In this document: positions 11,039 through 22,799 of the stretch, piece after piece
Layout of the letters: each line of letters starts with the position of its first letter
Position numbering within the stretch: position 1 is the first letter of the stretch
NCBI RefSeq assembly: GCF_017299535.1
Contig: NZ_CP071238.1
Location: 2,666,001 to 2,730,000 of the forward strand
Direction: 5' to 3'
DNA from: Serratia marcescens subsp. marcescens ATCC 13880
GTDB taxonomy: Bacteria; Pseudomonadota; Gammaproteobacteria; Enterobacterales; Enterobacteriaceae
Length of the DNA stretch: 64,000 bases
The notes under the pieces: model-generated
Told to the model about the DNA's origin: nothing
Database searches by the model: none
What the model saw: the letters and a program-made list of their open reading frames with translations, nothing else
Made by a program: the position numbers and the translations under genes

Positions 11039-12709
11039 TCACATCGGCGCCAGCAACGCTTCAATGCGGCGGTTTACCGCGTCGCGCAGGCGCAGCAGCG
11101 GCCCGGCCTGGTGCGGATAACGCTTGAAGGTGATGCGCATGCCCAGCTCGCGTTCGATCAGCGCCTCAACCGTCGGCCGGTCGGTCAGACTCTCCAGCAG
11201 TTGCAGCGCGCGCATGTCTTGCAGCCCCTGATGCAGCACCCGCAGGCGCAGCGACTCCACCGGCTGCAGATCATCGCCCGGATAGACCACGAACGGATCG
11301 CCGGAGGGAAACGCATGGCCGCTGTCGGTCACGGCATAAGGGTTGATACGTTCGAGCGAATGGGCGCTGTTATAGAAGTTGAATCCCCAATGCAGAAAGC
11401 CGGCGATGCGGTACAGATAGAGCTGCACGCCCAATATGCGGTTGCGCGCCGAAGGCTGGGCGAAGAACCGGTTGGCGACCTCGGTCTTCTGCACGCAGCA
11501 GTAATAGGCCCACAGGCCAGGCACCCGGTGTTCGATAAAGGGCTCAATATGATCGGTGGCGGCGACCGGGATTTCCACCAGGCCTCGCTGATAGAAAGCG
11601 AAATCCGACAGCGCATCGAAAGTGCGAAAGCCATCCAGTAGCGGCAGCAGCGCGGCGCTAGCGCGCCGGTAGGCCGCCAGGTTGTCCAGCGTCGGCTCAT
11701 CGGAAACATGGAACCACACCTGCCGTTCCAGCCCCCGTTCGCGGAACCAGGCGGTCAACGCCGGCAGCAGCGCCTGCAGAAAACGCTGGTACGCTTCGCC
11801 CTGCGCATCGGTGTGCCAGCCGAAAAGCGGTCGCGCCTCGCCCTGCTCCTCCACCACGATCTTCGGCGCATGCGCCGCGCCCCATTGGGTAAACAGCGGC
11901 GCGATTTCGAAGTGCTCGATGCCCTCTTCCTGCGCCAACGCTATCCACTGCGCCAGGAGACTGAAATCGAAGTCATACCCCTGCGCCGAACGCGACACCC
12001 TCACCAACTGCACCGTGGTGCGTTCACCGCCGACGGCGGTATCCAGCGGCGGCGTAAACAGCGGCGTCAGCAGCATATTGACCCCGCTATGCACCGCGCA
12101 GCGCACAAAGTTGCGCACCGCGCGCCAGTAATCCGGGCTGAACACCGCCAGACGGTAGTAATCCGCCAGGCAGTCGGTGTGCAACCACTCGGTGTGCAAC
12201 AGCGTTTGCGGCGGCAACGCCGCCGGCACCAGATGCAGCGTCAGCGTGGCCTCGGCCAGCGCCTCGCCGCTCTGGGCATCCCGCAGCCGCAGGGTCAACG
12301 GAAAGTCGCCGGCCAGTTGCGCGTCGGCCGGCGGCGTCAGGGTCAGCCACAGGCTGCCATAATAGCGGCAGGCGGCAAAAAAACGCCGTTGCGGCAGCGG
12401 TATCAGCGGATCGGGAAATAAGCCCGGCTCAGTCGTCAGGTAATTCTCATCGGTCTCGCGATAACAGGGAAAACCGCTCGGCACCGATTGCACCTGGCGC
12501 ACGCTGATATACTCCGCCAGCGGTCCGTCAAGTTGATAACTGAGCTCATGGCGAGTCTCGTTGCCCGGGGTTTGCAAACAGTACACCGCCTGCCAGGAAA
12601 GCACCTCGTTATTTAACCCGCTCAGCCGATTTTCTACGGAAACGGGCGGCATATTTTGGCAATGAAATACTTTCTCCAGGCAATGCGTAAATACCAGAGA
12701 CAGGCGCAT
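11039..12709 (-). CDS. GH123-like (DUF4091) putative beta-N-acetylgalactosaminidase
   Basis: A 556-residue protein with an N-terminal beta-rich region (about 1-165), a TIM-barrel-like middle and a C-terminal DUF4091 segment (PYAVTDSGHAFPSGDPFVVYPG). The DUF4091 family is now linked to glycoside hydrolase family 123, exo-beta-N-acetylgalactosaminidases that use an adjacent Asp-Glu pair for substrate-assisted catalysis. That pair is visible as D337-E338 in FHVSDEPT, preceded by FTQWGAAHAP. There is no signal peptide, so it should act in the cytoplasm on imported sugars. It is divergent from the ABC importer and shares its regulatory region. The exact glycosidic specificity is inferred. Confidence 0.72.
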   Translation of the reverse strand: MRLSLVFTHCLEKVFHCQNMPPVSVENRLSGLNNEVLSWQAVYCLQTPGNETRHELSYQLDGPLAEYISVRQVQSVPSGFPCYRETDENYLTTEPGLFPDPLIPLPQRRFFAACRYYGSLWLTLTPPADAQLAGDFPLTLRLRDAQSGEALAEATLTLHLVPAALPPQTLLHTEWLHTDCLADYYRLAVFSPDYWRAVRNFVRCAVHSGVNMLLTPLFTPPLDTAVGGERTTVQLVRVSRSAQGYDFDFSLLAQWIALAQEEGIEHFEIAPLFTQWGAAHAPKIVVEEQGEARPLFGWHTDAQGEAYQRFLQALLPALTAWFRERGLERQVWFHVSDEPTLDNLAAYRRASAALLPLLDGFRTFDALSDFAFYQRGLVEIPVAATDHIEPFIEHRVPGLWAYYCCVQKTEVANRFFAQPSARNRILGVQLYLYRIAGFLHWGFNFYNSAHSLERINPYAVTDSGHAFPSGDPFVVYPGDDLQPVESLRLRVLHQGLQDMRALQLLESLTDRPTVEALIERELGMRITFKRYPHQAGPLLRLRDAVNRRIEALLAPM

Positions 12710-13016
12710 GATAATCGGCCCTCTTTATTTTGGATAAGTCAATATTGTGAAATTCAGGCTAACGTCTTTTATCGCCACAGACAATAGCCGGCAATAAAAA
12801 ACGTTCCTGCACCCTCCTCTGACAGCCACAGCAAGATTTTTTTGTTTATTTGCATCACAAAAATGAAAGAAGAAGAAGCTTGCACAATAAAAATGTTTTT
12901 AATCCCCATTATGGTGCAAGGGTTATCAGTTATTCCTATGCCTGCGAAGGCCGCTAAATGCCGCGCCACCGGGGAAAAAACCCTTCAAAAGGTTAACGAA
13001 TTGTGAATAAACACAC

Positions 13017-13048
13017 CTTTCACTTGGCCGTCAAAGCCTTTCGATTTT
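13017..13048. promoter_or_regulatory. Tandem CTTTC elements, candidate AgaR operator
   Basis: Two repeats, CTTTCACTTGG (13017-13027) and CTTTCGATTTT (13038-13048), lie 21 bases apart, two helical turns, followed by CGAAAC at 13057. TTTC repeats are the core of known AgaR operators in E. coli. Related elements precede the agaR-like gene in this window. Binding is inferred. Confidence 0.4.
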
Positions 13049-13096
13049 AACAACAACGAAACATTGACGCCCCATTTTTGGGCGTTTGGGGGTGTA

Positions 13097-20742: not shown

Positions 20743-20768
20743 CCGAGGCTTTTTAAGGAGCTGTCATC

Positions 20769-21935
20769 ATGAACGCGTATTTCTCTTACGAGGCGAATTG
20801 GCTGAAGCAGCGCAACGCCTGGCATACCGCCGCAGAAATTTGGCAACAGCCGGATTTGTGGGCGGCGCTGCACCGCCAACTGCAGGATCAACAGGCGCAG
20901 TGGCAACCGTTCCTGGCGCCGTTGCTGGCTAATCCGCGCCTGCAAATCGTCTTGTGCGGCGCCGGCAGCTCGGCATTTGCCGGCCGCGCCCTGGCCCCCT
21001 GGCTGCGCGAACGCACCGGCCGCGACGTGGTGGCTTACGGCACCACCGATATCGTCGCCAACCCGCTGCAGTATCTTGACCCTGACCGGCCGACGCTGCT
21101 GGTTTCCTTCGCCCGTTCGGGCAACAGCCCGGAAAGCGTGGCGACGGTGGAGCTGGCCGATCAATTGCTGCCGGAAAGCTATCATCTGATGCTGGTGTGC
21201 AACCCGGACAGCCGGCTGGCGCAGTACGCGCATCAGCGTGGCAACGTCTGTTCGCTGGTGATGCCGCAAGGCGCCAACGATCAGAGCTTCGCCATGACCT
21301 CCAGCTTCAGCTGCATGATGCTGAGCGCCGCGCTGCTGCTCGGCCCGGCTTCGCTCGAGGCCGCCCAGGCGCCGTTGAACGCCATGGTGCAGCGCTGCCG
21401 CGCACTGCGCGAAACGCTGCAGCCGCAGGTGAAGGCGCTGGCCGCCAGCGGTTTCCGCCGCTATATCACCCTCGGCGGCAGCTGTTTTACCGGCCTCGCC
21501 GAAGAGGCCTCGCTCAAGATGCTGGAGTTGACCGCCGGCCACATCGTTACGCGCTACGACTCGCCGCTCGGCCTGCGCCATGGCCCGAAATTCATGGTCG
21601 ACGGCCAGACGTTGGTGGTGCTGATGTTCTCCCACAACGACTATGCCCGCCAGTATGACCGCGATCTGTGGAACGAGCTGCAGCGCGATGGGCAGGCGAT
21701 GCAACTGGTCGGGTTGACCGGCGAACGCCAACCTCTGTCCGATGCCCTGCTGCATATGCACGATGCGGCTGACGATATCTGGCTGCTATTCCCGTATCTG
21801 CTGTTCAGCCAGATGCTGGCCTTCGAGAGTTCGCTGGCGCTGGGGCTGACCCCGGATAACCCCTGCCCGACCGGCGAGGTCAACCGGGTGGTGAAAGGCG
21901 TGACGATTTACCGTTTTCCTTCCCCCGAGCTGTAA
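20769..21935 (+). CDS. agaS: Galactosamine-6-phosphate deaminase/isomerase AgaS
   Basis: A 388-residue protein with two SIS (sugar isomerase) domains, the size of E. coli AgaS. AgaS converts galactosamine-6-phosphate to tagatose-6-phosphate plus ammonia. Visible motifs include LCGAGSSAFAGRALAPWL and SFARSGNSPES in the first SIS domain, and a second SIS region around ITLGGSCFTGLAEEASLKMLE with PLGLRHGPKF. AAGGAG precedes the ATG. It lies between the AgaR-like repressor and the aldolase. Confidence 0.9.
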   Translation: MNAYFSYEANWLKQRNAWHTAAEIWQQPDLWAALHRQLQDQQAQWQPFLAPLLANPRLQIVLCGAGSSAFAGRALAPWLRERTGRDVVAYGTTDIVANPLQYLDPDRPTLLVSFARSGNSPESVATVELADQLLPESYHLMLVCNPDSRLAQYAHQRGNVCSLVMPQGANDQSFAMTSSFSCMMLSAALLLGPASLEAAQAPLNAMVQRCRALRETLQPQVKALAASGFRRYITLGGSCFTGLAEEASLKMLELTAGHIVTRYDSPLGLRHGPKFMVDGQTLVVLMFSHNDYARQYDRDLWNELQRDGQAMQLVGLTGERQPLSDALLHMHDAADDIWLLFPYLLFSQMLAFESSLALGLTPDNPCPTGEVNRVVKGVTIYRFPSPEL

Positions 21936-21944
21936 GGAGATCCC

Positions 21945-22799
21945 ATGTATCTGATAGCCAACCGAGACATGCTGCTCAAGGCGCAGCGCCAGGGTTACGC
22001 CGTTCCGGCGTTTAACGTCCACAATCTGGAAACCGTGCAGGTGGTGGCGGAGACCGCCGCCGAGCTGCGCTCGCCGGTGATCATGGCCGGCACGCCCGGC
22101 ACCTTCAGCTATGCCGGCACCGACTACCTGATCGGCATTTGCCAATCGGCCGCGCACCGCTACGATCTGCCGCTGGCGCTGCATCTGGATCATCACGAAG
22201 CGCTGGACGACATCGAGTATAAGGTGAAAAGCGGCATCCGCTCGGTGATGATCGACGGCTCCCATTTGCCGTTCGAGCAGAATATCGCCAAGGTGGCCGC
22301 CGCAGTGGCCCTGTGCCACCGCTACGGCGCCAGCGTGGAGGCGGAGCTGGGCCGCCTGGGCGGGCAGGAGGACGATCTGATCGTCGATACGACGGACAGC
22401 TTTTATACCGATCCGGCCGCGGCACGCGAGTTTGTCGCCGCCACCGGCATCGATTCGCTGGCGGTGGCGATCGGTTCCGCCCACGGCCTGTATCACGGCG
22501 AACCGAAGCTGGACTTCGAGCGCCTGGCGCTGATCCGCGAACAGGTGGACGTGCCCCTGGTGCTGCACGGCGCCTCCGGCATTCCGGAAGCGATGGTCAA
22601 GCGCGCGATCTCGCTCGGCGTTTGCAAGGTCAACGTCGCCACCGAATTGAAAATCGCCTTCGCCGATGCGGTAAAAAGCTACTTTTCGCAGCACCCGGAC
22701 GCCAACGATCCGCGCAAATACATCGTCCCCGGCAAGCTGGCGATGAAAGAAGTGGTGGCGGAAAAGATCCGCATCTGCGGCAGCAGCGGCATGCTGTAA
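21945..22799 (+). CDS. kbaY: Tagatose-1,6-bisphosphate aldolase, class II
   Basis: A 284-residue zinc-dependent aldolase of the KbaY/GatY type that splits tagatose-1,6-bisphosphate into dihydroxyacetone phosphate and glyceraldehyde-3-phosphate. Catalytic D82 and zinc ligand H83 are in [11 protein letters not shown], further zinc ligands are H180 (GSAHGLYHG) and H208 (LHGASG). It starts nine bases after agaS. In E. coli such aldolases need a KbaZ/GatZ partner for stability. None is encoded here. Confidence 0.88.

Follow-up and report, generated by a model that had tools for sequence, protein, structure and literature searches.

We analysed a 64,000-nucleotide stretch of the 5.16-Mb genome of Serratia marcescens subsp. 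marcescens ATCC 13880 (C1:2666001-2730000, contig NZ_CP071238.1), called the window in the following, and in it an island at positions 11039-22799 that combines a predicted beta-N-acetylgalactosaminidase gene with a sugar importer and genes of the N-acetylgalactosamine (GalNAc) pathway. The island contains ten open reading frames, all of them intact (Table 1). The glycosidase gene is located on the minus strand; divergent from it follow the genes for the solute-binding protein, the two permeases and the ATPase of an ATP-binding cassette (ABC) importer, a Gfo/Idh/MocA enzyme, a ROK-family kinase, agaR, agaS and an aldolase. Families were assigned by comparing Pfam and NCBIfam profile scores with the cut-offs of the models, and these assignments agree with the gene families listed in a first-pass annotation of this stretch. 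With the KbaY equivalog model the island aldolase stays below the cut-off (398 versus 542). The base composition gave no clear sign of a recent arrival: the island genes have a G+C content of 55.6-67.6% and the window one of 60.2%, and the four flanking genes (57-62%) are similar to the island genes in their third positions. A search of Rfam at the gathering thresholds returned no match, and no open-access paper title on this island was found.

Table 1. Genes and promoter regions of the island, with positions in the window
Feature	Position	Strand	Basis
GH123 Group 4-type beta-N-acetylgalactosaminidase gene (predicted)	11039..12709	-	556 aa; PF13320 345 bits; 8k2l 509 bits; active-site residues
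P1, divergent promoter region	12710..13174	.	three CTTTCRNTT boxes: 12861 (-), 13017 (+), 13038 (+)
ABC importer solute-binding protein, signal peptide	13175..14428	+	PF01547 (SBP_bac_1) 135 bits; hydropathy
ABC permease 1	14492..15448	+	PF00528 (BPD_transp_1)
ABC permease 2	15459..16277	+	PF00528 (BPD_transp_1)
ABC ATPase, UgpC/MalK type, with TOBE	16299..17411	+	NF008653 455 bits, cut-off 432
Gfo/Idh/MocA enzyme, candidate NAD+-dependent redox glycosidase or related enzyme (predicted)	17432..18715	+	Pfam; invariant residues; fold matches
ROK-family sugar kinase, NagK-like, predicted GalNAc kinase	18719..19639	+	PF00480 197 bits; NagK model 275 bits, cut-off 380
P2, promoter region before agaR	19640..19971	.	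CTTTCRNTT boxes 19772 (+), 19788 (-), 19888 (-); first two form an inverted repeat
agaR, DeoR-type regulator	19972..20742	+	NF040755 383 bits, cut-off 260
agaS, predicted galactosamine-6-phosphate deaminase/isomerase (SIS)	20769..21935	+	TIGR02815 539 bits, cut-off 529
kbaY/gatY-type tagatose-bisphosphate aldolase (class II)	21945..22799	+	TIGR01858 479 bits, cut-off 444

The glycosidase and its neighbours in the upper part of the island

The catalytic domain GH123_cat (PF13320) was found in the glycosidase with 345 bits against a cut-off of 23.1. The GH123 family was enlarged by a study from 2024 (PMC11087588), and among solved structures the island enzyme scores highest against 8k2l (509 bits) and 8k2n (434 bits), each of them named monosaccharide-releasing beta-N-acetylgalactosaminidase, followed by 8k2j (94 bits) and 8k2h (33 bits). 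From molecule names and numbering we infer that these four are NgaP2, NgaLy, NgaDssm and NgaAt. As judged by scores against structure chains and not by a tree, the glycosidase appears to have its nearest relatives in Group 4 of this extended family. The NgaP2 residues W196, D244, W298 and F489 align to W175, D223, W276 and F467 of the glycosidase, and the DE motif of GH123 is present as D337-E338. Position 297 of NgaP2 is printed as D in PMC11087588 and is Q in the aligned chain as well as in the query (Q275). According to that study, the Group 4 enzymes tested cut terminal beta-GalNAc only, save for a weak activity of NgaP2 on N-acetylglucosamine (GlcNAc), and the Group 4 pocket is shut by two loops. 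The in silico data thus support the prediction of an exo-beta-N-acetylgalactosaminidase of the Group 4 type, and the beta-GalNAc-type enzyme named in the first-pass annotation finds its backing in the nearest group and the conserved active-site residues.

A hydropathy scan of the start of the glycosidase revealed no strong hydrophobic stretch (maximum mean hydropathy 1.08). Since the enzyme is without an evident signal peptide, cytoplasmic cleavage is the natural reading, and the glycoside would presumably be cleaved after its import. The binding protein, in contrast, has a strong hydrophobic start in the same scan (maximum mean hydropathy 2.32), as expected for a signal peptide. For the ROK protein, the kinase step is predicted from gene position and family. 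On plasmids, five relatives of the glycosidase were found (three in Subdoligranulum, one in Paenibacillus and one in Phocaeicola), none of them enterobacterial.

The lower pathway genes and a distant PTS cluster

The first-pass annotation had called the island independent of the phosphotransferase system (PTS), a description that, as it stands, finds no support in this genome. At about 4114697-4119377, 1.4 Mb from the island, a cluster with the order agaR2-kbaZ-agaVWEF encodes a second AgaR, KbaZ and the components EIIB, EIIC, EIID and EIIA. NCBIfam scores are over the cut-off for AgaR (395, cut-off 260), the KbaZ/GatZ subunit (TIGR02810; 680, cut-off 569), AgaV (240, cut-off 180), AgaW (403, cut-off 300) and AgaF (205, cut-off 130), and below it for AgaE (425, cut-off 500). 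The genome has two EII-Sor-type permeases, one of which is located within this cluster. Neither agaA nor agaS nor kbaY was found within the PTS cluster. The single AgaS over the cut-off in the genome is the island copy, the other match being weak and partial (29 bits; frame of 631 residues), and the single tagatose-bisphosphate aldolase over the cut-off is likewise that of the island (second match 85 bits versus 444). Since the PTS cluster is without agaS and kbaY and the only copies over the cut-off are found in the island, the lower module is probably common to both routes, and agaS and kbaY of the island likely serve the distant GalNAc PTS as well.

The island by itself is not complete either. 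Among its ten genes there is no deacetylase gene and no kbaZ, the latter being located in the PTS cluster. A single nagA over the cut-off was identified at C1:1236774-1237907, with adjoining frames that by eye resemble nagC, nagB and nagE, and the genome contains one phosphofructokinase of the PF00365 type (PfkB-type kinases were not searched). In Escherichia coli R32_14_1F the aga genes, including agaA, agaS, kbaY, kbaZ and the PTS, are all found in one place.

Conservation and losses in relatives

The best 80 of 180 relatives of the glycosidase were kept, and gene order marks 22 of these loci (L002-L023) as enterobacterial. Two of the 22 are located on short contigs with the binding-protein gene as sole companion, which leaves 20 evaluable loci. 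The four ABC genes, ROK, AgaR, AgaS and the aldolase were found in all 20; in eight of these the aldolase, and in two of the eight also AgaS, was taken from extended stretches, and the aldolase frame of L095 comprises only 184 residues. The two Pantoea loci have an AgaS with 41-42% and an aldolase with 57-58% identity. An ortholog of the Gfo/Idh/MocA enzyme is present in 17 of the 20, is missing in Brenneria (L011) and is represented in the two Pantoea loci by a relative with 25-27% identity. In eight of the 20 loci the cluster itself includes kbaZ (recognised in L092 by family model, in the others by sequence likeness), and both Pantoea clusters contain a NagA-type deacetylase gene (L092 by score, L091 by likeness). 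The 58 other loci, mostly from Firmicutes, have AgaR in no case, AgaS in one, ROK in two and both permeases in 24. Within the best 80 of 180 relatives, the link between aga genes and the glycosidase is enterobacterial. One locus labelled Chryseobacterium (L018, CACSKA010000003.1) holds a cluster of the enterobacterial type that closely resembles the one in L020, labelled Citrobacter; the label may be wrong.

The gene set of the first-pass annotation recurs in other Serratia genomes. In a survey of 30 genomes of the genus, orthologs of AgaW (at least 93% identity) and of AgaS (at least 86%) were found in the same 21, a pattern that also speaks against independence from the PTS; four of the nine genomes outside this set are small (1.5-3.6 Mb). 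The AgaW (aga EIIC) of G019 matches in two overlapping pieces (G019:C2:3406053-3406830) and may be broken. The glycosidase is present at full length in 19 of the 30 genomes, and a twentieth match is a 42-residue remnant in G029. Two genomes, G021 and G029, have kept AgaS, kbaY, the PTS and three of the promoter boxes described below in front of agaS-kbaY; the glycosidase, the importer, the kinase and the greater part of agaR have been lost from both, in a different pattern in each. G021 lacks the equivalents of window positions 11052-19597 and 20015-20691, and scars formed by the ends of the glycosidase gene, the ROK gene and agaR remain there, and in G029 several shards of the upper module remain. 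These scars and shards show that the absences are losses and that in both genomes, which retain the PTS, the lower module persisted longer than the upper one; it is mainly because of these two genomes that we call the lower module shared. Another Serratia, G003, which is outside the 21-genome set and without the island, has a different assembly (L104 4447-12271) with genes for a melibiase-like enzyme, a permease-like protein and a BadF-type kinase together with kbaY (58%), agaS (43%), a kbaZ-like and an agaR-like gene.

AgaS and AgaW were searched in ten relatives with the glycosidase (L011, an eleventh, was left out), and AgaS was found in all ten. The best match to the Serratia AgaW has 25-27% identity in G030, G032, G034, G036, G037 and G038, 30% in G039 and 32-35% in G031, G033 and G035; as a yardstick, AgaW of E. 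coli is 59% and AgaC of E. coli 36% identical to the Serratia protein. Some relatives may therefore rely on the ABC route alone, free of a PTS.

Promoter boxes shared by both modules and the PTS cluster

P1 and P2 were aligned over nine Serratia sequences, and the motif CTTTCRNTT was read from the alignment by eye and then counted. It occurs seven times in the window, three times each in P1 and P2 and once outside the island at 61008. To allow for this choice after inspection, all 32,768 patterns with the shape of the box were run on the two promoters of the window, and CTTTCRNTT was the sole one with at least two matches in both promoters. At least two boxes in both promoters were found in 16 of 18 sequences (the window and 17 of the 22 loci). 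The Pantoea pair has only 17-20 bases in front of agaR. One further box was found in L086. Two boxes are located before agaR2 of the PTS cluster, and in E. coli R32_14_1F three were found before kbaZ and three before agaS, with 12 in total in 28.9 kb. The 11 kb around the mannose-type PTS contain none.

AgaR and AgaR2 are 75% identical, and 77% in the DNA-binding part. The simplest reading suggested by these data is a single regulon in which AgaR and AgaR2 would cross-recognise the boxes, both of them presumably binding CTTTCRNTT. In genomes with a broken agaR, AgaR2 would be left as the candidate repressor. In silico, one regulon for both halves of the island is supported by the boxes in P1 and P2.

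Proposed pathway and alternatives

We think that the island is probably composed of two modules: an upper one (glycosidase, ABC importer, Gfo/Idh/MocA enzyme, ROK kinase), which is predicted to import and cleave a GalNAc glycoside and to phosphorylate the GalNAc, and a lower one (agaS, kbaY) likely shared with the PTS. In Serratia, the island is thus likely an optional glycoside front end on a likely shared lower pathway. This reading builds on what is directly visible in the genomes, namely gene content, single-copy status, loss patterns and shared boxes. According to this model, the ABC importer with its binding protein would take up a short oligosaccharide ending in beta-GalNAc, which would be cleaved by the cytoplasmic Group 4 enzyme. 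The ROK kinase would convert GalNAc to GalNAc-6-phosphate, NagA of the nag operon would deacetylate it, and AgaS would yield tagatose-6-phosphate. PfkA is the likely tagatose-6-phosphate kinase for the step to tagatose-1,6-bisphosphate, which KbaY, probably helped by KbaZ of the PTS cluster, would then split. For E. coli it has been reported that NagA can replace AgaA, that agaS is essential and that KbaY reaches its full activity only with KbaZ (PMC3668189). The first-pass annotation had proposed that the glycoside is imported intact and cleaved within the cell and that a kinase step follows, all of which is supported here in silico. Our guess for the substrate is a LacdiNAc-like N-acetylhexosamine disaccharide, based on the glycosidase, the similarity of the kinase to NagK and the chitobiose-type PTS that accompanies the system in E. 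coli (see the last section).

Several points weigh against the two-module model. The island is without agaA, and a survey of gut genomes took agaS without agaA as a sign of galactosamine and not GalNAc use (PMC5583593). For the binding protein, none of the characterised proteins is a close relative, its best match being Lmo0181 of Listeria with 135 bits, and the ROK protein is nearest to NagK yet under its cut-off (275 versus 380). The co-occurrence of AgaW and AgaS inside one genus does not count as independent evidence. The box was first picked out by eye and counted afterwards, and it is also found inside genes elsewhere, with three in the 13 kb around nagA, all within frames. A scan for sigma-70 promoters and terminators gave no more sites than shuffled sequences. 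The 24-base AgaR consensus of E. coli fits the island poorly, its best sites in P1 and P2 having five mismatches; the same scan finds the E. coli aga sites with 0-1 mismatch.

Some of these points could also mean that importer and glycosidase act on another sugar, such as a GlcNAc or galactosamine oligosaccharide without terminal beta-GalNAc, and that the aga genes are merely co-regulated, which we regard as unlikely. The distant relationship of the binding protein and the NagK-like ROK protein would be in line with it, as would the weak activity of NgaP2 on GlcNAc-beta-pNP (p-nitrophenyl; PMC11087588), and an island without a deacetylase gene fits galactosamine as well. However, the Group 4 active-site residues are kept, AgaR and AgaS accompany the glycosidase in all 20 evaluable enterobacterial loci, and the Pantoea clusters include a NagA-type deacetylase, all of which speaks against this reading. 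We regard it as unlikely, too, that the island is self-contained and PTS-independent and that the distant PTS cluster is unrelated to it. Apart from deacetylation and kbaZ, the island does have a gene for every step, and in six relatives the best match to AgaW has just 25-27% identity; yet the PTS cluster of this genome is of the GalNAc type and lacks the very genes, agaS and kbaY, whose only copies over the cut-off are in the island, kbaZ is placed with the PTS, and two genomes keep agaS-kbaY after the loss of the upper module.

Comparison with known systems

In the two-module island, enzyme families and a lower pathway that are both known appear to be joined in a new arrangement. The Group 4 enzymes NgaP2 and NgaLy (PMC11087588) are similar to the island glycosidase in sequence (509 and 434 bits), DE motif and substrate residues, whereas the island enzyme is enterobacterial and encoded beside agaR, agaS and an aldolase gene. 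In the main text of that paper, the terms 'Gram-negative' and 'intracellular' do not appear, and its abstract of 2024 describes beta-N-acetylgalactosaminidases as enzymes of ambiguous biological significance. With the island, an enzyme of GH123 Group 4 is placed in a defined genetic context.

With the classical enterobacterial aga regulon (E. coli, PMC3668189; R32_14_1F) the Serratia system shares AgaR, AgaS, the aldolase and, at a distance, KbaZ and AgaVWEF. In contrast to it, the Serratia genes are split over two loci with two AgaR paralogs, a glycosidase, an ABC importer and a kinase are added, and agaA was not found beside either locus. In Shewanella, the permease AgaP and the kinase AgaK take the place of the PTS (PMC2996990), and non-PTS uptake, a sugar kinase and AgaS are common to both systems; in Serratia, however, an ABC importer replaces the permease, a predicted intracellular glycosidase is present and the same genome encodes a GalNAc PTS. 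This suggests that Serratia has two entry routes for GalNAc, a PTS and a glycoside importer, with one lower pathway and perhaps one regulon, for which the two relatives without the entry module represent a natural test.

The Gfo/Idh/MocA enzyme

Across 49 Gfo/Idh/MocA sequences, the residues K110, K196, H199 and H372 as well as four cysteines are invariant. The island enzyme has the Gfo/Idh/MocA fold and the EKP lysine, and a GHGGGD loop with H372 is present in 49 of the 49 sequences; it may correspond to the GGHGG-type loop with the catalytic histidine, a motif name that stems from the title of a reference in PMC10755693. The nearest matches include NAD+-dependent sulfoquinovosidases and the transient-oxidation enzymes YjhC and RgNanOx. 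The fold, the EKP lysine and apparently also a conserved C-terminal histidine (in the island enzyme that of the GHGGGD loop) are shared with the GH188/GH109 sulfoquinovosidases (PMC10755693), RgNanOx (PMC7535918) and YjhC (PMC7315737), whereas the identity over the fold is about 17-22% and the island enzyme has an insertion of its own with the four invariant cysteines. These are located in residues 237-290 and suggest a metal site. With the C-terminal part as sole query, no solved structure was matched. The profile match to 2ixa (GH109) covers positions 4-154 only (E 8.3e-8), and 2ixa is not among the 50 structural matches listed, which excludes nothing.

Few genomes matched at the level of the class (one of 369 at E <= 1e-130, the own genome) and of the order (four of 394 at E <= 1e-100, the own genome counted), so that close relatives of the enzyme are rare there. 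Such relatives were found in galactosamine settings in E. coli, in G621 and on two Deinococcus plasmids. Of 26 matched plasmid records, 11 regions were inspected, two of which are without annotation; the nine annotated regions show galactosamine or amino-sugar markers in three cases and none in six, one of the six adjoining a GH4 gene.

The Gfo/Idh/MocA protein may be a second enzyme for GalNAc release, dependent on NAD+, or a related redox enzyme, and it represents a candidate enzyme family in galactosamine operons of distant bacteria. That it founds a new family of NAD+-dependent galactosaminidases, the thread common to galactosamine operons that arose by separate assembly in Serratia, E. 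coli, further enterobacteria and Deinococcus, is a tentative and rather doubtful proposal; the island would then encode two chemically unrelated galactosaminide cutters, one substrate-assisted and one using transient oxidation. There is a substantial chance, if somewhat short of even, that the protein is an ordinary NAD-dependent dehydrogenase for the other half of the glycoside and releases no GalNAc. Against this role speak the recurrence of close relatives in the galactosamine settings mentioned and the NAD+-dependent sulfoquinovosidases and transient-oxidation enzymes among the nearest matches.

Three of the genomic contexts deserve description. In an E. coli from goat (L105 9976-16969, NZ_CP074749.1), an extra block with genes for a PTS IIB, chbC, GH4, chbG, Gfo/Idh/MocA, ROK and a second agaR is located beside a normal aga cluster. 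The two Deinococcus plasmids (L112 1-11269, L113 1-9242) carry an apparently full operon for galactosamine oligosaccharides, with genes for a polygalactosaminidase, GH4, an ABC importer, kinases, a SIS protein and an aldolase. In Thermomicrobium roseum (L121 6649-17176), a relative with 41% identity is encoded beside nagA, a SIS protein, an anhydro-N-acetylmuramic acid kinase, a hexosaminidase and murQ, a context that hints at amino-sugar or anhydro-sugar chemistry.

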